This document shows positions 48,415 to 63,020 of a stretch of DNA of 64,000 nt, in pieces. The translations under genes were made by a program, and so were the position numbers. Every line of letters begins with the position of its first letter. Within the stretch, counting starts at the first letter, position 1. Origin of the DNA: Acidobacteriota bacterium (lineage in GTDB: Bacteria; Acidobacteriota; Thermoanaerobaculia; Multivoradales; J023); the NCBI GenBank assembly GCA_029263315.1, contig JAJCXR010000004.1:1-64000 (forward strand), written 5' to 3'. The notes under the pieces are model-generated. The model was given only the letters and a program-made list of their open reading frames with translations, ran no database searches and was not told where the DNA came from.

Positions 48415-49530
48415 ATGTCAACTAGTTCTTCCGAAGCCTGGTCCAAACTGTCTCTTGACGATCTCGAGGACCTGATCAGTTGGATCCTTCACCGCGAAGG
48501 ATTCTTCGACCTACGCTCCTGGGACGAAGCCACCGAGTTGGATGGATCGGTGATCCTCGGTTGGCGGACCAACCTGCTCGATGGCGAGGTCAAACGGCGG
48601 CAGTGCGTCATTCTGAGTCGCGAGTATGGCAAACGGGTATCGCGCAAGGCTTTGCAGGAAGATATCGGCTCGGTGCGGTCCCTGTCGCCGGAAATCACTA
48701 TCGTTGCGACGCCGTCGGTGGTGAGCGCCGCCACCAAGAAATGGGCCGGTGAGCTGCAGGGCTCGATCGGCTCTCAGGTGGTGATTTGGGACCGCGATGA
48801 CTTGGCTTTTCTCTTGGATCATCACCAGGACTTGCGGCTGCGCCTCTTCGATGTGCCCCCCACCCATGATTTCTTCATCAAGCACTTGACCGATCGCGAG
48901 CGTCAGTTCGTCGATATCGGCCGATTGTTCAGTAGCGATACGATTCAAGAATCCTTGGTGGAGGGATGCCGGATCGCCATCCGGCAATCGACCTTGGTGA
49001 CCTTGGCGCATCTGCTGATCGGGTTGATGCGCTTCGACAAGGGCCACACCCGCCGGCTGTTCGCCGAGCAAGAGCTGGATCCCTTCGATATCGCCCAGTA
49101 TTTAGAATCCCTGGTGGGGCGGAGTCAAAACAAGATCGACCTCAAGACGGTCGGTCTCAAGCTGAGCTCGTCGTTTCGGTCAGTGCTCGACACGGCCATC
49201 ATCATTACCAAGCTTTTTGATCTCGTCGAGCTGCAAGAGAGGGTTCTCTTACTGGCCATCCTGATGCATCCGACCAGCGTCTCGGTCAATGCGCTGAATC
49301 AGCTCTGCGCTGGCGAAGAACCGGTGATCTTGAATGCCTTGGTGGAATCCCACCTGTCGACCAAGGAAGTCGAGCTCCTGTTGGCCGCCTTCGGGCCGGA
49401 CCTCAAGGCGCTGGGAACCCAGGGTGTCAAGTCCCTGTGGAATCAGTTCGACAATATCGACAAGTTTGATGACAGCGTCTACGAGACCCGGGTCATTCCC
49501 CTGTCGGAAGTGCCCCGCGGCAAGCTCTAG
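48415..49530 (+). CDS. Mrr-like N-terminal domain joined to Clp-N-like helical repeats
   Basis: 371 aa. Residues 8-140 resemble the Mrr/restriction-endonuclease-like fold: LSLDDLEDLISWILHREGF, then SPEITIVATPSVVSAATKKWA and VVIWDRDDLAFLL, which match the late strands and helix of Mrr-type domains. The catalytic QxK motif is replaced by RQCVILSRE, so nuclease activity is doubtful. Residues 175-300 look like two Clp-N (ClpA/B/C N-domain) repeats (LAHLLIGLMRFDKG and ERVLLLAILMHPTS). It is convergent with the globin-kinase gene. A role as adaptor or scaffold of that locus is speculation. Confidence 0.5.
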   Translation: MSTSSSEAWSKLSLDDLEDLISWILHREGFFDLRSWDEATELDGSVILGWRTNLLDGEVKRRQCVILSREYGKRVSRKALQEDIGSVRSLSPEITIVATPSVVSAATKKWAGELQGSIGSQVVIWDRDDLAFLLDHHQDLRLRLFDVPPTHDFFIKHLTDRERQFVDIGRLFSSDTIQESLVEGCRIAIRQSTLVTLAHLLIGLMRFDKGHTRRLFAEQELDPFDIAQYLESLVGRSQNKIDLKTVGLKLSSSFRSVLDTAIIITKLFDLVELQERVLLLAILMHPTSVSVNALNQLCAGEEPVILNALVESHLSTKEVELLLAAFGPDLKALGTQGVKSLWNQFDNIDKFDDSVYETRVIPLSEVPRGKL

Positions 49531-49551
49531 CCTTTGGCACCAGCTAGTTCC

Positions 49552-49581
49552 CGCCCCGCCTCGTTTTTATTGGATGGACAC
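49552..49581 (+). repeat. Intergenic repeat, copy A (left side of the heme-sensor locus)
   Basis: CGCCCCGCCTCGTTTTT followed closely by TTGGATGGACAC. The same two blocks occur at 55015-55053 in the same orientation. A 10-bp direct repeat CACCAGCTAG brackets this copy (49538-49547 and 49579-49588). Confidence 0.65.
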
Positions 49582-49634
49582 CAGCTAGGGGCGAGGGTGT
49601 TCGAGCTGACACACCGACCCCGCTGAGCCGGGGC

Positions 49635-51998
49635 TCAGTCCTCTTCCAGCATCACATCGACGATCTGGGTATAGAAATGTTCCCAGGCGTGGCGCACGGC
49701 GTCGTCCAGCTTGTCGCCGGTCATCCGCTCGACGGTGGTCAGCAAAGCCGTCCCGACGATTTCGTAGTGCTCGGGTTGGACCCCGTAACCGCGGTGGGTA
49801 TCCCCCAGACGGCGGAGATACGGGGCCACTTTCTCGAGATGATCGAAGCCATTGACCATGGTGGTCAACATGCTCATGAACTTCTGGCCCTGGAGGGTCA
49901 TGTCGGTGTCCTTGAACAGGGCACGGACGGAGGGCTGGAGATCGAAGAGGGTGCGGTAGAACAAACTGGCCGCTTCCTCGCTCCATCCCGAAAGGCGCTC
50001 GAAGGTGGTCTGGACGATGAAGGCGGTATCTGGATGCTCGAGGTCAAAGATCTCGTAGAGGGTCAGGAAGTCGTCTCCCACCGGCTCATCGGGGAGGATG
50101 TTGCCGAGGGACAGCTGCTCTTCGATGACATTGATCATCTCTTCCGTCGCCAACAGGCTGCTGGTGCCGAGCTCGTTGTTGTGTCGACAGACAGCGTCCA
50201 CCAACGGCCCCGCCTCGCCGATGGCCAGCAACGGTCGATTGGCGGCGAAACCCCCGACTTGGCCCACCACCATGCGAGCGAAATGGAGCCCGATCCCCAG
50301 GCGAAGCTCGCAACCGAAATAAGACTGGGTGTAGCGATTGAATACCACCATGCGGTCGGCGGCCCGTAAGCTGGTGCGCACCGCGGCGAGGCATTTTTCG
50401 ACGGCGGAGCCCCCCTCGAGACCGAAGAAGGCGCGAAAGCCGGCGCTGGAATAGCTCTGGATCTGGCCCCCATAGGCGGTCACCAAGCTGCCGATCTGCG
50501 ACAGAAAACGATGTAGGAGGTGGATCTGATCGTAGGGCGGTGCGCGGTGCGAGAAACCCTCGAAGTCCAGCAGCTCGCAGGTCATCAAAGCCAAGGTCAT
50601 TTCTTGGGCGGGCAGGGTCTGGGTTTGCTCGTTCAAGAGCAGGCCAATGTCGTGGGTATCGCGGACCAGGCGCTCGACGACGACATCGCCGGTGACCCGA
50701 GCCTGGCAGGCCAGCCGAATGTCCTCATCCCAACCCATGCGCTGGGCCAGTTTGTCCTCCTGCGCCGAGCGGGGTTGTACGTTATCGAGCTGCTCGACAA
50801 TACGCACGCGACAGGTGGAGCAACGGGCTCGGCCACCGCATTCATGAAACAGCGGGATCTCGTTTGCCAAGGCCAGCTCGAGGAGGGTGCGCCGTCGGCC
50901 GCTGTCGAATCGTGCTGTCTGGTCGCCGCCGTCCTCATTGCGGAAGACGACATTCACTTTGTCGCCCGTGGGTCTCCTGAGGGTGGCCGGCTTACGGATG
51001 GTGATCTGGGGCTTCGACGTCGAGCTGCCCGACGACTCTGGGCTGAAAGGGCTCTCGCTGACCTGGTCCGGGGCAGTCCCTTGGGGCTGGGAGGCTCCGC
51101 TGGTCCCCTGCGCCACCGGGGGGGACAGGTGGATTCCGCTGCCACTGGAGGATTCCGTCAGGCGCCTCTGGGTGATCGCATCGAGGGTGGTGATCGCCTC
51201 GTCGGCGCTTTGGGTTCGGTTCTCGGGTTCTTTCTCGAGCAAGGCATCGACGAAGGCGGAAATCGAGTCCGCCACCGTGGGCCGTACTTCGCGAATCGAC
51301 TGATGCTCGAGGGTGCAGATCCTGGTCAGGGTCTGCATGCGATTCTCGCTGTGGAAAGGCGAGGTGGCGGTGAGCATCTCGTACATCAAGATGCCCAGGG
51401 AAAAGAGATCCGAACGGTGATCGATGTTGGTGCCGAGGGCCTGCTCCGGGGACATCGCCGAGATGGTGCCCATCAGGCGACCGGCGATGGTGATGCTCGG
51501 CTCGTTGTCCGCGTGCATGTGTTTGGCTAGGCCGAAATCGAGGATCTTGACCTGATCCGTGGACGTCAGCATGATGTTGTCCGCTTTGAGATCTCGATGT
51601 ACGATGCCGGCTGCGTGGGCGGTTCGCAGGCCGGCGAGAATCTGCCTCGCCAGGTCGATGGCACGATCGGCATCGAGGGGACCCTGGTCGATCAGGAGCC
51701 TCAGGGATCCCCCTTCGACCAACTCCATGACGATCCAGTCGCCGTCGTCACCCTCGACCAGATCGTAGACTTGGACAATCGAGGGATGGCTCAAGCGGGC
51801 CGCCGCCCGCGCCTCCCGACGAAAGCGCTCGCGGGCCCCGGAGGAAGATTCGCCTTGGATATTCTTCAATGCTACGGGACGATCGAGACGTTGATCGAAG
51901 CCTCGAAAGACAACGCCCATGCCCCCCGCGCCGAGCCGCTGCTCGATGCGGTAGGGACCGATCATCCTTACAGGAGGCACCTCTTGATCTTGCACCAT
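49635..51998 (-). CDS. Ser/Thr kinase-ferredoxin-cyclase-homology-globin fusion protein
   Basis: 787 aa. (1) PknB-type kinase, about 14-280: LGAGGMGVVF, Lys45, HRDLKADN, DFG and GTISAMSPEQ all intact. (2) A Ser/Pro-rich linker, then a 2Fe-2S ferredoxin domain with Cys387-x5-Cys393-x2-Cys396 and Cys431. (3) A class III cyclase-homology domain, about 465-625: the first metal Asp is kept (LDFEGFS), but the second-metal/substrate stretch reads GGQIQSYSSAGFRAFFG, with Ala where GD supplies Asp, so it is probably inactive. (4) A C-terminal globin, about 650-785, with proximal His735 in LGDTHRGYG and a closing helix HAWEHFYTQIVD. It suggests a cytoplasmic kinase gated by O2/NO and redox state. Divergent from the ParA/roadblock/H-NOX operon. 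Confidence 0.88.
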   Translation of the reverse strand: MVQDQEVPPVRMIGPYRIEQRLGAGGMGVVFRGFDQRLDRPVALKNIQGESSSGARERFRREARAAARLSHPSIVQVYDLVEGDDGDWIVMELVEGGSLRLLIDQGPLDADRAIDLARQILAGLRTAHAAGIVHRDLKADNIMLTSTDQVKILDFGLAKHMHADNEPSITIAGRLMGTISAMSPEQALGTNIDHRSDLFSLGILMYEMLTATSPFHSENRMQTLTRICTLEHQSIREVRPTVADSISAFVDALLEKEPENRTQSADEAITTLDAITQRRLTESSSGSGIHLSPPVAQGTSGASQPQGTAPDQVSESPFSPESSGSSTSKPQITIRKPATLRRPTGDKVNVVFRNEDGGDQTARFDSGRRRTLLELALANEIPLFHECGGRARCSTCRVRIVEQLDNVQPRSAQEDKLAQRMGWDEDIRLACQARVTGDVVVERLVRDTHDIGLLLNEQTQTLPAQEMTLALMTCELLDFEGFSHRAPPYDQIHLLHRFLSQIGSLVTAYGGQIQSYSSAGFRAFFGLEGGSAVEKCLAAVRTSLRAADRMVVFNRYTQSYFGCELRLGIGLHFARMVVGQVGGFAANRPLLAIGEAGPLVDAVCRHNNELGTSSLLATEEMINVIEEQLSLGNILPDEPVGDDFLTLYEIFDLEHPDTAFIVQTTFERLSGWSEEAASLFYRTLFDLQPSVRALFKDTDMTLQGQKFMSMLTTMVNGFDHLEKVAPYLRRLGDTHRGYGVQPEHYEIVGTALLTTVERMTGDKLDDAVRHAWEHFYTQIVDVMLEED

Positions 51999-52208
51999 GG
52001 CGGCGCCAGTCTAGCCAAGCGACGGACGCCAACGCAAGGAGAACCGCGGCCACGCGGGGTGAAGTTGCGTTTTGCATCATGGGAATGCTTGAAAGGCCAG
52101 GAAGCAGGTGGATTTTTTCTTGGATCGGCGCCTCGGGGGAGGTCGAGTAGGTGTCATGAGGAGACTCGATTCGCTCTGTCGGGGGGGTGCCTGGAGAGCC
52201 GTAACCCC

Positions 52209-52237
52209 TTGTGGCTATTGGCACTTTCCACTATAGT
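52209..52237 (+). promoter_or_regulatory. Putative promoter of the ParA-roadblock-H-NOX operon
   Basis: TTGTGG (52209-52214), a 17-bp spacer and TATAGT (52232-52237), 66 bp before the GTG at 52304. It lies in the 305-bp divergent region shared with the kinase-globin gene. On the minus strand TAGACT stands 9 nt before that gene's ATG. Confidence 0.5.
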
Positions 52238-52303
52238 CTCGAAGCAAAGTTTGACTAAAGCCCTGGTTCTCTCGAGGCGAGCATTCCATCGGAGCAGGAG
52301 ATT

Positions 52304-53140
52304 GTGAAAGAGCTCGACGAACAAAGTGACCCGAGCGTGGTGCTAGCCATAGCTAGCCAGAAAGGGGGCGTCGGCAAGACGACGACTGCCCTGAATCTTG
52401 GGTATGCGCTGGCGCGCCGCGGTTGGAGGACCCTGGTCGCCGACGCGGACCCCCAAGGGGCCATCGGTTTGTCCTTGCGGCGCAAGGGGCCGCCGGGCCC
52501 CGGCTGGGTCGATTGCCTGCAGAAGGGTTTGAAGGTCAAGGAAGTGGCGTTGCGGACCCGCCTCGCCGAATTCGACATCCTGACCTTCGGCGGTGACAGC
52601 TCGGCCCAGCTTTGGAAACCCGTCGAAGGGCTTTTCGAATCGAGCGCCCTGCGTTCCTTCTTCGACGAAGCCAAGCAGCACTACGACGTCATCGTCGTCG
52701 ATACGGCCGGCGGAACCTATGGCCCGACCTTGGCGGTTCTGCGAGAGTGCGACTCCGTCTTGTTCCCCCTCCAGGCGGAGCCCTTGGCCCTGCGCTCAGT
52801 GACGCAAATTCTCGACGTCATCGGGGTGCTACGGCGGGAAGGCTCGCACATCAGCATTGCGGGATTCCTTCTCACCATGCTCAGCCCCGACGATCCAACC
52901 TCCATGTCGGTGGCCCAGGAGTGTTGGAAGTTGTTGCCCTCGGAATTGATTCTCAACGCCAATGTGCCGCGGGATCATGCGTTTTTGCGGGCCAGTGTGC
53001 ACGGCGTGCCGGTGAGCTTGTTGAGTCGACGACCACCTAGGGTGTCGGCGGTATTCGATTTGATCTCCCACGAAATCGAACGGCGCATAGGTTTGGTGAG
53101 GATGGAGGAGCCGGATGAGCCAATCCCTCTCTTGGATTGA
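52304..53140 (+). CDS. ParA/MinD-family ATPase
   Basis: 278 aa, GTG start with AGGAG upstream. Deviant Walker A KGGVGKTT (signature Lys20, Lys25), Walker A' VADADPQGA and Walker B VIVVDTAGG. ParA-type ATPases dimerise on ATP and position cargo or act as switches. No parB or parS is nearby, and the gene overlaps a roadblock-type gene by 26 bp, so it is more likely a signalling or positioning ATPase than a plasmid partition protein. Confidence 0.9.
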   Translation: MKELDEQSDPSVVLAIASQKGGVGKTTTALNLGYALARRGWRTLVADADPQGAIGLSLRRKGPPGPGWVDCLQKGLKVKEVALRTRLAEFDILTFGGDSSAQLWKPVEGLFESSALRSFFDEAKQHYDVIVVDTAGGTYGPTLAVLRECDSVLFPLQAEPLALRSVTQILDVIGVLRREGSHISIAGFLLTMLSPDDPTSMSVAQECWKLLPSELILNANVPRDHAFLRASVHGVPVSLLSRRPPRVSAVFDLISHEIERRIGLVRMEEPDEPIPLLD

Positions 53141-53942
53141 TCCGGAGGCCCTGGCGGCGTCGTTGGCGCGAGCCGGGGTCAAGTCCCGACCGCGCATGCC
53201 GACAGCTGCACGCTCCCCGGAGACGGTCACCGGTCCTACCGCAGCCTCTGGCTTGCCTGCGGTTTATCATCAGGTGCAGATCCCTGGCCATTTGCAAGAA
53301 ATGATGGGTGCTGAGGGTGCTTCCACTCAGGCCCCTGCACCTGCTCCAGCCCCGGGGCCGGCCCGACCCGCGGCGCCGGCCTCCGCTCCGGACCCGGTGC
53401 CACCGCCGACGGCGCCGGCCGGGCACAAGATTGTCACGCCCGCTAGGCTGTCCATTCCCGAGCCGACGACCGTCGAGGCGGCCAAGGCGTCCGCCGCAGC
53501 TGCCCGGGCCGGGGCAGCTCATCAAGACGCAGCTCATCAAGACGATGACGAAATCGAGGCCTTCGAGCCCCCGGCCAGCCGACTGCATGACCGTTTGGAA
53601 GCGTTCATGGAATGGGTTGAGCGGCAGGTGCACTGCCACGAGATGTTCATCGTCGACGAAGAGGGTCTGGTGTTGATGGAAAGGAATTCCGACCCGACTT
53701 TGATTGCGGTATCCTCCTATTTTCTCAATTTCAATGAACGAATTCGTAGCTCCCTCGGTGCGCAAAGCGAGGGCTCGGTATCCATCGACCTCAAAGGGGG
53801 GCAGACGCTGCATGTCGTCCAAGCGGAGACTCGCCTGGGGCCCCATGCGTTGGGATTCACCATCTCCCAACCACTGCGTCGTAAGGTGACCGAAAGCTTT
53901 AGAGCATCTCTACCCATCGTTTTTGGACAGGAGCCGAGCTGA
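53115..53942 (+). CDS. Protein with Pro/Ala-rich region and C-terminal roadblock/LC7-like domain
   Basis: 275 aa, GGAGGAG upstream, start inside the ParA gene. Residues 60-150 are Pro/Ala-rich and probably disordered. Residues 155-270 fit a roadblock/LC7 fold: helix LEAFMEWVERQV, strands MFIVDEEGLVLM, helix ISSYFLNF-like AVSSYFLNFNERIRSSL, strands SVSIDLKGG and LHVVQAET, and a final helix. Roadblock proteins regulate small GTPases or other NTPases; here the partner is likely the ParA-like ATPase. A 15-bp duplication (AAHQD twice) lies in the linker. Confidence 0.65.
   Translation: MSQSLSWIDPEALAASLARAGVKSRPRMPTAARSPETVTGPTAASGLPAVYHQVQIPGHLQEMMGAEGASTQAPAPAPAPGPARPAAPASAPDPVPPPTAPAGHKIVTPARLSIPEPTTVEAAKASAAAARAGAAHQDAAHQDDDEIEAFEPPASRLHDRLEAFMEWVERQVHCHEMFIVDEEGLVLMERNSDPTLIAVSSYFLNFNERIRSSLGAQSEGSVSIDLKGGQTLHVVQAETRLGPHALGFTISQPLRRKVTESFRASLPIVFGQEPS
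53514..53543. repeat. 15-bp tandem duplication in the roadblock-domain gene
   Basis: Two identical copies of GCAGCTCATCAAGAC, in frame, encode AAHQD twice within the disordered linker. Confidence 0.9.
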
Positions 53943-53991
53943 TGAGTTTCGGTAAACGAGGACGAGTCGATCCGTCAGGAAGAACGAAGAC

Positions 53992-54366
53992 GTGAGCGTT
54001 TTACAGCAGGAGTTGGATAAGTTTCGTGACGAGGTTCCCGAGTTCGTCTCGACGGACATGGTCAACATCGAAAGCGGGTTGTCGATCGGCGGGGCGACCA
54101 TCGATCCGGACTTCGATGCGTCGGTGGCATCTGCCTGTTATGCCGAGGTCGTCAAGTTGAACCGTCGAGCCCTCGAGCTGTTGGGCTTGGGTGCCAACTC
54201 GACCGAAGATCTTCTGGTGACCACCAAGAAGGTCAACATCTTGGTGCGCATGCTGGGTGTCGAGTACTGCCACGTCCTAGCGATTTCGCGCAAGGCGAAT
54301 CTAGGCTTGGCCCGGGCGATCATGAAGAAGTACGAGCAAGTGTTGCTCGAAGCCGTGAAAGACTGA
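53992..54366 (+). CDS. Small roadblock/LC7-family protein (MglB-like)
   Basis: 124 aa, GTG start with AGGAAGAA upstream. A single domain with the helix-strand order of MglB-type proteins: ELDKFRDEVPEF, VNIESGLSIGGATI, the long helix CYAEVVKLNRRALELLG, strand TKKVNILVRML, strand YCHVLAISRKANLGLA and the final helix AIMKKYEQVLLEA. In other bacteria such proteins are GAPs or scaffolds for Ras-like GTPases. No GTPase is encoded here, leaving the ParA-like ATPase as candidate partner. Located 33 bp before the H-NOX gene. Confidence 0.8.
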   Translation: MSVLQQELDKFRDEVPEFVSTDMVNIESGLSIGGATIDPDFDASVASACYAEVVKLNRRALELLGLGANSTEDLLVTTKKVNILVRMLGVEYCHVLAISRKANLGLARAIMKKYEQVLLEAVKD

Positions 54367-54399
54367 TCGGATTGCCTGGCGGCGCAGAGGAGAGACACG

Positions 54400-54990
54400 A
54401 TGCTCGGATTTTTCTTTACTGAGATTCGACAATACGTACGCGACAATATGGGGGAGTCCGGCTGGGTCGAAGTCATGGATCATGCCGGCTTGGGGCCAAA
54501 GGACTATATGAATGGCCTCGATTATCCTGACAAAGAAATGGTCGCCATCATGGTCAGCGCGGCCAATCTTTCCGGGGCCCCCTTAGGACACTTCCTGAAA
54601 GGCTTCGGTTTTTTCCTTGGCGGCCACCTGTTCAATTCGTTCAAGCCGTTGATCAATCCCCAGTGGCGGTCCTTGGACTTTTTCGAGAATGTCGAGGAAA
54701 CGATTCACCAGGTGGTCCGGGCGCGCAACCGCAAGGCTCGACCGCCTCAGCTGCTGTGCAGTCGCATCACTTCCCGCGAGCTGTTCATCGATTATCGTTC
54801 CGAACGCAAGCTCTGCCAGCTGGCTCAAGGCATTGCCTTGGGGGTTGCGGGTTACTATGGCGAAGAAATCGAGATCCTGGAAGAGACTTGCATGCACCGC
54901 GGTGATCCGAGCTGCAAGATATGGATCGCCTTGGGCAAAAAACCCGAAATCAAGAGAGTCAGCGACGACGACATCTGGTCCGACGACTGA
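54400..54990 (+). CDS. Stand-alone H-NOX heme-based NO/O2 sensor
   Basis: 196 aa, AGGAG upstream. H-NOX hallmarks: MxGFFFTEIRQYV start, MGESGWVEVMDHAGL, heme-ligating His103 in VEETIHQVVRA, Pro115-Pro116 (ARPPQL) and the heme-propionate motif Tyr132-x-Ser134-x-Arg136 (YRSER). The C-terminus ends with a Cys-containing strand pair (CMHRGDPSCKIWI). Facultative aerobes use stand-alone H-NOX proteins to report NO to kinases or cyclases. Here it is the last gene of a ParA/roadblock operon and lies opposite a globin-kinase. Confidence 0.9.
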   Translation: MLGFFFTEIRQYVRDNMGESGWVEVMDHAGLGPKDYMNGLDYPDKEMVAIMVSAANLSGAPLGHFLKGFGFFLGGHLFNSFKPLINPQWRSLDFFENVEETIHQVVRARNRKARPPQLLCSRITSRELFIDYRSERKLCQLAQGIALGVAGYYGEEIEILEETCMHRGDPSCKIWIALGKKPEIKRVSDDDIWSDD

Positions 54991-61451: not shown

Positions 61452-63020
61452 TCAGGAGTCGGGGGAAGCCGGCGGCCCGCCGCCTTCTTTTTTGCCCTTA
61501 TGACGTATCTGTGACTGCCACATGTCCACCAGCATCTCGCGGTCATGGCTGGAGAGGATCAAGTGGTCGCGGCTGGAAAGCACAAAATCGTCCTCGAAAG
61601 CTCCCTTGGGTTCTTTGAGAAAGATCAGGCAGAAGAAGAAGCTGATCAAGGAACCGACGGCGATGATGAAAAAGAAACGCTCGTTCGATACGACGGTGTA
61701 GAGGGTGAGGTAAAAGACGGCACCGACGTTGCCGTAGGCACCCACCATGCCCGCCACCTTACCGGTCATCCGCTTCTTGATCAGCGGGATGATGGCGAAG
61801 GTCGCTCCTTCGCCCCCCTGTACGAAGAGAGAGCACAGCACGGTGATGGCGACGGCGCTCACCAGGGGCCAGGTTTCGTCGATCAGCGACATGCCGAAAA
61901 AGCCCATGCTGATGCCCAGGAGGAACAACAGCATGATGGTCCGGCGGCTGGTGAAGCTGTCCGACAGAATGCCGCCCAGGGGCCGGGCGAAGAGATTGAC
62001 CACCGCGAAGCTGGAGGCCACCAAGCCGGCCTCGGCGGGCGAGATGGCGAAGGTGTCCTCAAAAAAAACAGGCAGCATGGAAACTACCGCCAGCTCGGCA
62101 CCGAAATTGGCGAAGTAGGTGGTGTTGAGGGCGGCGATGCAGTTGAACGAGTATTTATCGTCTTCGGGGATCAGATCATTGCGCAGCAGGGGTAGGTTGT
62201 GCCGCGCGATGCGGATCAGATCACGGATGTAGAGGATGGCAAGAACCACCCAAACCGAGTAGAGGAAGGTCTGCGAAAGAAATTGGATGTTCTGTAGCTT
62301 CCATGCCAGCAGGGCCAGGGCTCCATACAGCGGCAGGGTCCATAGCATGAGGAAGATCATGTCGCGGAAGCTGCTGACTTCGATGGGCTCGGTCCGTTGG
62401 GAGCCGAGGAAGGCCTTACCTTTGGGCGTATCCGTCACCCGTAGGAAGTAGACGATTCCGTAGGCGAAGCAGAGAATGCCGGTGAAAGCGATGGCATAAC
62501 GCCAGCCGTTTTCGCCTCCGAAAACGTTGAGGGCGATGCTCGGCAGTACGATGGCGGCGGCGGCGGAGCCGAAGTTTCCCCATCCGGCGTAGAAACCCTC
62601 GGCAAAGCCGATGTCCTTGGGTGGAAACCACTCGGCGACCATGCGGACCCCGATGACAAATCCGGCGCCGACACCGCTGAGGACCAGGCGAGAAATCACC
62701 AAGACCAGGACACTGTCGCCGAGGGCGAAGACGAAGCACGGCAGCGACATGACGATCAGCAGACCGGAGAAGACGAGCCTCGGCCCATAACGGTCGAGCA
62801 TGGCGCCGACGACGATGCGAGCTGGGATGGTCAGCGCAACGTTGCAGATCAACAAGACTTTGACGGTTCCCGAGTCCAACCACTCGAGTTGTTTGATCAT
62901 GGTCGTGGCCAAGGGGGCCAGATTGAACCACGTAAAGAAAGTGAGAAAGAAAGCGATCCAAGTGTAGTGCAGCGCCTTGATCCGCTCTTGCTCGAAATCC
63001 AGCAGCTCTTTGACCTTCAT
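61452..63020 (-). CDS. NarK-family MFS nitrate/nitrite transporter
   Basis: 522 aa with about 12 TM helices. NNP-family features: the GWGNFGSAAAAIVLPS nitrate-signature-like Gly-rich helix, GVGAGFVIGVRMVAEWFPP and the GAYGNVGAVFYLTLY second signature. The family moves nitrate and/or nitrite. The length exceeds 450 aa because of a long central loop and charged tail. GGAG precedes the ATG. No nitrate reductase genes are in the window; a FixJ-type regulator lies 72 bp upstream on the same strand. Confidence 0.9.
   Translation of the reverse strand: MKVKELLDFEQERIKALHYTWIAFFLTFFTWFNLAPLATTMIKQLEWLDSGTVKVLLICNVALTIPARIVVGAMLDRYGPRLVFSGLLIVMSLPCFVFALGDSVLVLVISRLVLSGVGAGFVIGVRMVAEWFPPKDIGFAEGFYAGWGNFGSAAAAIVLPSIALNVFGGENGWRYAIAFTGILCFAYGIVYFLRVTDTPKGKAFLGSQRTEPIEVSSFRDMIFLMLWTLPLYGALALLAWKLQNIQFLSQTFLYSVWVVLAILYIRDLIRIARHNLPLLRNDLIPEDDKYSFNCIAALNTTYFANFGAELAVVSMLPVFFEDTFAISPAEAGLVASSFAVVNLFARPLGGILSDSFTSRRTIMLLFLLGISMGFFGMSLIDETWPLVSAVAITVLCSLFVQGGEGATFAIIPLIKKRMTGKVAGMVGAYGNVGAVFYLTLYTVVSNERFFFIIAVGSLISFFFCLIFLKEPKGAFEDDFVLSSRDHLILSSHDREMLVDMWQSQIRHKGKKEGGGPPASPDS

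Follow-up and report, generated by a model that had tools for sequence, protein, structure and literature searches.

A ParA-roadblock-roadblock-H-NOX operon as an apparently undescribed conserved module in an Acidobacteriota genome

In bacteria, roadblock proteins are known above all for regulating GTPases. In the conservons of Streptomyces a roadblock gene lies beside an NTPase and a sensor, together with a Ras-like GTPase and a histidine-kinase-like protein. ParA ATPases have partners with short activating peptides. In Myxococcus xanthus, as outlined in a passage of PMC10329633, RomR binds MglC, MglC binds MglB and MglB acts on MglA; PomX is named an activator of ParA/MinD in the title of a reference. 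Most of the H-NOX proteins studied act on histidine kinase/response regulator (HK/RR) systems or on diguanylate cyclase/phosphodiesterase (DGC/PDE) enzymes, according to a passage of PMC8738867. Here we describe four adjacent genes, encoding a ParA-like ATPase, two roadblock proteins (RbD and RbE) and an H-NOX heme sensor, in a 64,000-nucleotide stretch of the Acidobacteriota contig JAJCXR010000004.1, which is the whole stretch analysed and is called the window below. This ParA-RbD-RbE-H-NOX operon is real and conserved and, as a module, apparently undescribed. Its composition is strongly supported, and the mechanism we propose for it is moderately supported.

The window is on contig 4 (325 kb) of an 8.0-Mb genome, and the four genes are on the same strand. 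The first (52304..53140, +) encodes a ParA/MinD-family ATPase of 278 aa (Pfam AAA_31, 4.1e-24, 86 bits) with a deviant Walker A motif, KGGVGKTT, at residue 20. It overlaps the RbD gene (53115..53942, +; 275 aa) by 26 nt (53115..53140, +), where two frames encode the C-terminal PIPLLD of ParA and the N-terminal MSQSLSWI of RbD. RbD has an N-terminal SLSWIDP peptide, a low-confidence linker and a C-terminal MglB-like roadblock domain at about residues 157-271. After a 49-bp gap comes RbE (53992..54366, +; 124 aa), and after a further 33 bp the H-NOX gene (54400..54990, +; 196 aa). The immediate neighbours of the H-NOX gene are RbE and a 110-aa open reading frame without Pfam match, neither being a histidine kinase, diguanylate cyclase or methyl-accepting chemotaxis protein. 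On the other side, parA adjoins RbD and a divergently transcribed kinase-globin gene, with no ParB gene next to it. The divergent region of 305 bp (51999..52303) presumably holds the promoters of both units; a single, weak sigma-70-like site was found in it (52257-52230, -). All gene positions given in an original prediction for this locus were confirmed, including the divergent region and a convergent Mrr/Clp-N-like gene. The motifs it named are also present, namely the globin His735, the H-NOX His103 and YRSER, the ferredoxin C-x5-C-x2-C and the kinase HRDLKADN/DFG. To these we add the 26-nt ParA/RbD overlap, a motif of three Cys and one His in H-NOX, and a cyclase-like domain in the kinase-globin protein.

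Genomes, loci and families are designated below by G, L and f numbers. RbE (E<=1e-15) was found in 4 of the 72 genomes of the order, namely G000, which carries the window, G005, G012 and G020, and all four keep the order ParA-RbD-RbE-H-NOX. RbE is the best conserved of the four proteins, with 72-82% identity to the window protein in the other three genomes; identities are 51-66% for ParA and 42-58% for H-NOX. When the 22 called genes of 30 kb of G005 were compared with the 49 window genes, only six of the latter had more than a receiver-domain match: ParA, RbD, RbE, H-NOX, the kinase-globin gene and one MFS transporter. Since the 22 genes were taken from two abutting stretches, one gene may be counted twice. 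G012 and G020 (f7) belong to one genus and have flanking genes in common with each other. The operon is not due to chance, being kept in three further genomes with flanks largely unlike those of the window. The original prediction was to fall if homologues showed no conserved neighbourhood, which the four-gene order in four genomes shows not to be the case. Its ParA-roadblock-roadblock-H-NOX unit is conserved and no description of it was found, and the roadblock-NTPase logic, like that of MglB, is supported. The wider adjacency that it proposed to search for, with the kinase-globin gene included, held for the four-gene operon in four genomes, with the kinase-globin gene near it in only two of them. 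Genes were called with a home-made codon-usage caller, and six-frame rechecks were made because it missed several, including the RbD of L058 and a number of H-NOX genes. Several of the stretches end at contig ends.

Neither RbD nor RbE had a match in Pfam (E<=0.5) or NCBIfam (E<=0.1). A profile of 18 RbE relatives found M. xanthus MglC (7ct3) in the PDB at 7.8e-10, along with other roadblock proteins, and the AlphaFold2 (AF2) model of RbE matched 3kye and MglB by Foldseek at about 2e-6, as expected of a roadblock/LC7 protein. The RbD profile gave no sequence match in the PDB and fold comparison alone succeeded: the AF2 model has the roadblock/LC7 fold and matched MglB 1j3w by Foldseek with an E value of 1.3e-5 and a probability of 1.00. 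The C-terminal domain of this model has a predicted local distance difference test score (pLDDT) of mostly 87-95, with 67-76 at residues 201-220. Its elements are ordered helix-strand-strand-helix-three strands-helix, and the closest structures are MglB. The N-terminal part is of low confidence except for a short helix at residues 10-19 (pLDDT ~70), which starts at the end of SLSWIDP. RbE is an MglC/MglB-type and RbD an MglB-like roadblock protein, in agreement with the two roadblock-type proteins originally predicted. Together they make up the MglB-like plus MglC-like pair of the Mgl polarity module.

The H-NOX protein matches Pfam HNOB at 2.5e-28 (99.5 bits, against a gathering score of 25.5). 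Its closest PDB entry is the Shewanella oneidensis H-NOX 4u9b (7.6e-16; Foldseek 1.4e-12). It has the proximal heme ligand, H103, and the YxSxR heme motif, as YRSER at residues 132-136. Leu141 occupies position Y+9 of this motif, which we take, from Tt H-NOX, to be that of the O2-gating distal Tyr; the residue typical of the O2-binding subclass is thus absent there. Since a passage of PMC8738867 gives the distal Tyr as the means to tell O2-type from NO-type proteins, the window H-NOX is predicted to be of the nitric oxide (NO) type, and the O2 sensing originally considered for it is not borne out. Residues C139, C164, H166 and C172 form a zinc/redox-type motif that is present in the window and in L010, the operon locus of G005. 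A separate H-NOX (G069, L107:5788-6741) has an extra N-terminal region of ~140 aa and a V4R/MetOD1 overlap.

The association of RbE with H-NOX extends beyond the order. Among 396 genomes of the phylum, RbE (E<1e-20) was found in 10 and H-NOX (PF07700) in 28, at 33 places, 12 of which are within RbE loci. H-NOX adjoins RbE in 9 of the 10 RbE genomes (G000, G005, G012, G062, G104, G285, G412, G077 and G260). When counted anywhere in the genome, H-NOX occurs in 9 of 10 RbE genomes versus 19 of the 386 others (Fisher p 1e-10, uncorrected for relatedness). A search of the class found RbE in 6 of 119 genomes, including G448, which also has an RbE-H-NOX pair. By six-frame profile search RbE was recovered in 10 of 10 pair loci, nine of them by construction since they are rows of the profile, and in none of 22 other H-NOX stretches (6.6-19 kb). 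These 22 consist of the 21 non-RbE H-NOX places and G050 (L018). H-NOX itself was re-found by profile in 21 of the 22, the miss being L112, a weak H-NOX place in G422, a genome with RbE-like roadblocks on another contig than its H-NOX place. No RbE or RbD match was found in 20.5 kb each around the haloarchaeal H-NOX relatives L011 and L012. At three f21 loci (L052, L053 and L064) two RbE and two H-NOX copies lie side by side.

RbE and H-NOX are separated by 10-64 bp, a spacing repeated in two H-NOX clades. In a tree of 34 H-NOX rows, from which G074 (L079), G359 (L086), G422 (L090), the weak L007-L009 and L136 were omitted, the paired proteins form one group of f21/f30 (support 94/85, not starred) and another of f1/f7 (95/91). 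The f1/f7 group is nested with H-NOXs from haloarchaea and from other families without an adjoining RbE. Forcing all paired H-NOXs into one clade costs 117 log-likelihood units (approximately unbiased test, p-AU 1e-4), with long branches as a caveat; row L089 in particular has a very long branch. Since the paired H-NOXs fall in two clades, the pairing has originated, or been re-established, on at least two occasions. RbE of the f21/f30 group is 39-57% identical to that of the f1/f7 group. Judged from these sequences, one RbE family is paired with two H-NOX lineages, and co-inheritance alone is not a sufficient explanation.

RbE is also found fused to other domains. In f7 (L013, L014) it carries an N-terminal DUF4388 domain, which we take to be the same as PATAN. 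A REC-DUF4388-RbE fusion directly precedes H-NOX in six f21 genomes, and L057 (f30) has a REC-RbE fusion, with no DUF4388 match, before H-NOX. The fused genes with an internal start are L052:9880-11001, L053:10103-11386, L054:10805-11929, L055:9612-10775, L057:425-1795, L064:10146-11285, L136:850-2016, L013:10195-11037 and L014:10391-11287. In these the RbE part begins at an in-frame ATG or GTG behind a Shine-Dalgarno sequence, e.g. AAAGGAGGTGAAAAAATG. In 9 of 9 fused genes no other in-frame internal start has a better Shine-Dalgarno than that of RbE, though in L057 the next codon equals it. In the AT-rich loci at least 7 matching bases were found at 7 of 7 RbE starts (7-11 bases), as against 15 of 1438 internal starts in the background; one further 7-base site is present in each of L053 and L064. 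The RbE starts of L013 and L014 have 6 and 7 matching bases, where the background shows 6 or more at 16 of 546 starts. The fused genes probably give two products, a long protein and a free RbE.

ParA proteins related to that of the window (E<=1e-40) were found at 8 places in at least 7 of the 396 genomes; six candidates per genome were scored, and the counts are lower bounds. All 8 loci have the ParA among roadblock or roadblock-like genes. A profile of RbD, built from the window, L010, L013 and L014, also matches L140, L141 and L058. The ParA-RbD overlap is 26 nt in the window, L010, L013, L014, L141 and L058, and 41, 35 and 32 nt in L140, L142 and L143, respectively. The 26-nt overlap encodes the ParA tail and the SLSWI of RbD (NLSWI in L058). 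Within the window genome there are 11 AAA_31 and 5 RbE-type matches, and only the window ParA (1 of 11) is <10 kb from one of the latter. At L142 an RbE-like roadblock lies 1.7 kb upstream of ParA, and an ODP-family gene is found between this roadblock and a REC protein, upstream of ParA (L142:8786-12120). A member of the ODP family is an oxygen-binding diiron sensor in Treponema, as noted in a passage of PMC7666581.

L058 has a longer row of genes (L058:824-7481): a REC-DUF4388 protein, RbE, a 159-aa Cys-containing protein, carbonic anhydrase, a 437-aa protein without Pfam match, a glutamine amidotransferase-like protein, ParA and RbD, with a further roadblock-like gene (405-926) after ParA-RbD. 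Considered as a candidate H-NOX/V4R relative, the 159-aa protein had no Pfam match at 0.01, and its only PDB matches were three to SMC proteins with E values near 0.5. REC-DUF4388 genes also occur close to the operon (L010) and to ParA or RbE (L058, L143). The window genome itself has a sister module on contig 45 (L062:7235-12678), consisting of a sigma-54 regulator, a REC-DUF4388 protein with a weaker C-terminal roadblock match, two roadblocks and a 505-aa protein whose match to Arf GTPase is weak and below the cut-off. GTPase-like relatives at L061 and L063 also lie beside roadblocks.

The gene divergent to the operon (49635..51998, -) encodes a Ser/Thr kinase (residues 16-263), a 2Fe-2S ferredoxin (361-436), a degenerate class III cyclase-like domain (~460-650) and a globin (680-783). 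The Pfam scores are 181 bits for the kinase, 37 bits for Fer2 and 64 bits for the globin. The cyclase-like domain was recognized in the orthologue in L010 (Guanylate_cyc 2.1e-4, 21.3 bits, just under the 21.9 cut-off), and an alignment of four copies agrees. At what we take to be the metal-motif positions of class III cyclases, the second Asp is absent in 4 of 4 copies (Glu in L139), and cyclase activity was rejected on this ground. With the non-kinase part as query, the order gave four copies, two in G000 and two in G005, and G435 was found by the globin part only; the ferredoxin cysteines and the globin His are kept in all four. One copy is near the operon in each genome, divergent at 305 bp in G000 and on the same strand at 4.3 kb in G005, where it is followed by a flavodoxin gene, in keeping with a redox role. 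The chance that one of two copies falls within 10 kb in a 10.2-Mb genome is ~0.4%; G000 and G005 belong to one family. The second copies (L138, L139) have no RbE, RbD or ParA homologue in ~20 kb, and neither f7 operon genome (G012, G020) has a match at E<=1e-10. We have therefore demoted the kinase-globin protein from the core of the module to a possible part of it, linked in 2 of 4 operon genomes. Its originally predicted place in the ParA-operon pathway is weakly supported, by the proximity in G000 and G005.

Next to the kinase-globin gene, convergent to it and 104 bp apart, is a gene (48415-49530) in which an Mrr-like nuclease domain, just under the Pfam cut-off for Mrr_cat, is fused to a Clp N-terminal domain (Clp_N). 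The original prediction had noted it as convergent, and we rejected it as a part of the module; there was no tblastn match (E<=1e-3) in the operon stretches L010, L013, L014 and L016 or in the searched pair loci. A defence system was also rejected. In PADLOC the kinase matched kinase-domain models (among the best 25 of 36 matches) and ParA had a short P-loop match, whereas RbD, RbE, H-NOX and the Mrr/Clp-N protein had none. The MFS transporter shared with G005 is 70% identical and lies near the operon in both genomes (window 61452-63020; L010:10797-12398).

We propose that the operon encodes a ParA switch controlled by gas or redox state, in which the signal would pass from H-NOX to RbE, then to RbD and then to ParA, because it holds an MglC-like and an MglB-like part, a ParA in the place of MglA and an H-NOX adjoining RbE. 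The contacts, the direction of the signal and the cargo are what we infer, and we give this reading a probability of about 0.5. H-NOX would bind NO at the heme His103 and/or sense oxidation at its zinc-thiolate site, and the resulting conformational change would be handed to the adjacent MglC-like RbE, its conserved partner. RbE may be the adaptor that engages the MglB-like RbD, in the manner of MglC with MglB. RbD in turn would set the ATPase cycle or the localization of ParA by means of its SLSWIDP peptide; that this peptide is the ParA-contacting part is a guess by analogy. ParA would thereby govern where a cargo or pole machine sits or how active it is; the output may be type IV pili or polarity. 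Such an output is plausible since PATAN regulators have been linked to type IV pili in cyanobacteria, as stated in a passage of PMC7690835.

A number of observations weigh against this proposal. A single-chain AF2 model of RbE-H-NOX reached a predicted template modelling score (pTM) of 0.67, a value that comes without an interface score. One genome, G178, has RbE and no H-NOX. No ParA homologue of the window kind was found in the f21/f30 RbE-H-NOX stretches examined, and for this reason ParA would not be the sole output of the pair. The zinc-type motif is partly lost in the f7 H-NOXs of L013 and L014 and is absent in those of f21/f30, which makes heme rather than zinc the more likely common signal. 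On the ParA side, a six-frame search of the stretches found no H-NOX with the relatives L140, L141, L142, L143 and L058. An RbE-type roadblock is weak at L140 and was not found on the short L141 contig. L143 matches the RbD profile weakly (0.0037), and the L142 gene of RbD-like size, place and overlap misses it. Finally, the lineages are related, so that the counts are not independent, and the sampled genomes are of one phylum only.

A bolder and less probable reading is that the roadblock proteins are a general adaptor layer through which interchangeable gas or redox sensors (H-NOX, ODP-type diiron proteins and perhaps others) would act on ParA ATPases and Ras-like GTPases, with the REC-DUF4388-roadblock gene giving two products and the RbD peptide activating ParA. 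If true, this would add a new class of cell-positioning switches, controlled by NO/O2. It is rather doubtful, in our view, that the transcript instead carries two devices, an H-NOX and RbE with output to a two-component/DUF4388 pathway and an independent ParA-RbD positioning system that is merely co-transcribed. The fusion of RbE to REC (with DUF4388 in f21) in the f21/f30 loci, where no such ParA was found, would agree with this, as would L052, where the RbE-H-NOX locus is beside a histidine kinase and a sigma-54 regulator, and the ParA-RbD units without H-NOX of L140, L141, L143 and L058. However, a further roadblock accompanies the ParA-RbD units of L058 and L143, and more weakly that of L140, and four genomes retain the four-gene order, with flanks that are largely unlike between the window and the others.

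We regard it as unlikely that the module is wider, with the kinase-ferredoxin-globin protein sensing O2/NO and redox state and phosphorylating ParA, RbD or RbE. The kinase motifs are present, and the two genomes of the order in which the gene occurs both have a copy close to the operon, though only six window genes were matched in G005. Against this stand the two operon genomes without a match, the isolated second copies, the differing orientation and distance, and the membership of G000 and G005 in one family, by which the linkage may be inherited. Quite unlikely is ordinary H-NOX signalling, in which a histidine kinase or diguanylate cyclase elsewhere would be controlled and the position of H-NOX would be incidental. 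Most studied H-NOX proteins do act in this way, as cited above, and the window protein resembles the Shewanella type, but the close spacing to RbE recurs in two H-NOX clades. The ParA fold might suggest a ParABS-type partition cassette, or the genes might be a chance cluster; we consider both very improbable, as ParA is followed by roadblock, roadblock and H-NOX genes and no ParB, the contig is 325 kb long, and the operon occurs in four genomes.

The ParA switch that we favour would suggest an undescribed route by which nitric oxide or redox state alters position or polarity within the cell, and the H-NOX-roadblock and ParA-roadblock pairs would tie gas sensing directly to the spatial organization of the cell. 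With their small size (124, 196, 275 and 278 aa), the four proteins lend themselves readily to binding and ATPase tests. Among the open-licence PMC papers searched, H-NOX and roadblock come together in one, which mentions H-NOX for its structural resemblance to TRAPPC3. In the matching portions of PMC12288465 and PMC11025332 the terms ParA and 'roadblock domain' occur apart, and nothing closer to the operon is among the matches listed.

Among described systems, the H-NOX-histidine kinase and H-NOX-DGC pairs of Shewanella, Vibrio and Caulobacter share with our locus a stand-alone H-NOX, the heme His, the zinc-type motif (in the window and L010) and the arrangement of sensor and partner as a gene pair, but the partner here is a roadblock protein. 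The legend of an H-NOX neighbourhood network in PMC8738867 lists families other than roadblock. PomX/PomZ and other ParA/MinD positioning systems likewise have a ParA-like ATPase with a partner; here the partner, a roadblock protein, bears a conserved peptide at its N terminus, and a gas sensor is in the same operon. PATAN(DUF4388)-REC response regulators have a counterpart in the REC-DUF4388 fused to RbE in f21 and the DUF4388 fused to it in f7, but the fusion partner here is a roadblock domain that has a start site of its own, and an H-NOX gene comes next. The Streptomyces conservons also have a roadblock gene beside an NTPase and a sensor, which there are a Ras-like GTPase and a histidine-kinase-like protein. 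The closest likeness is to the RomR/MglC/MglB/MglA module of M. xanthus, in the MglC-like and MglB-like pair next to an NTPase and in the REC-containing partners of the relatives. A Ras-like GTPase is absent from the operon, the weak GTPase match being in the separate contig-45 module, and we therefore class the operon as roadblock-NTPase signalling rather than as a member of the Mgl module. It differs from that module by a ParA instead of MglA, by an H-NOX sensor and by DUF4388 fusions with internal starts.

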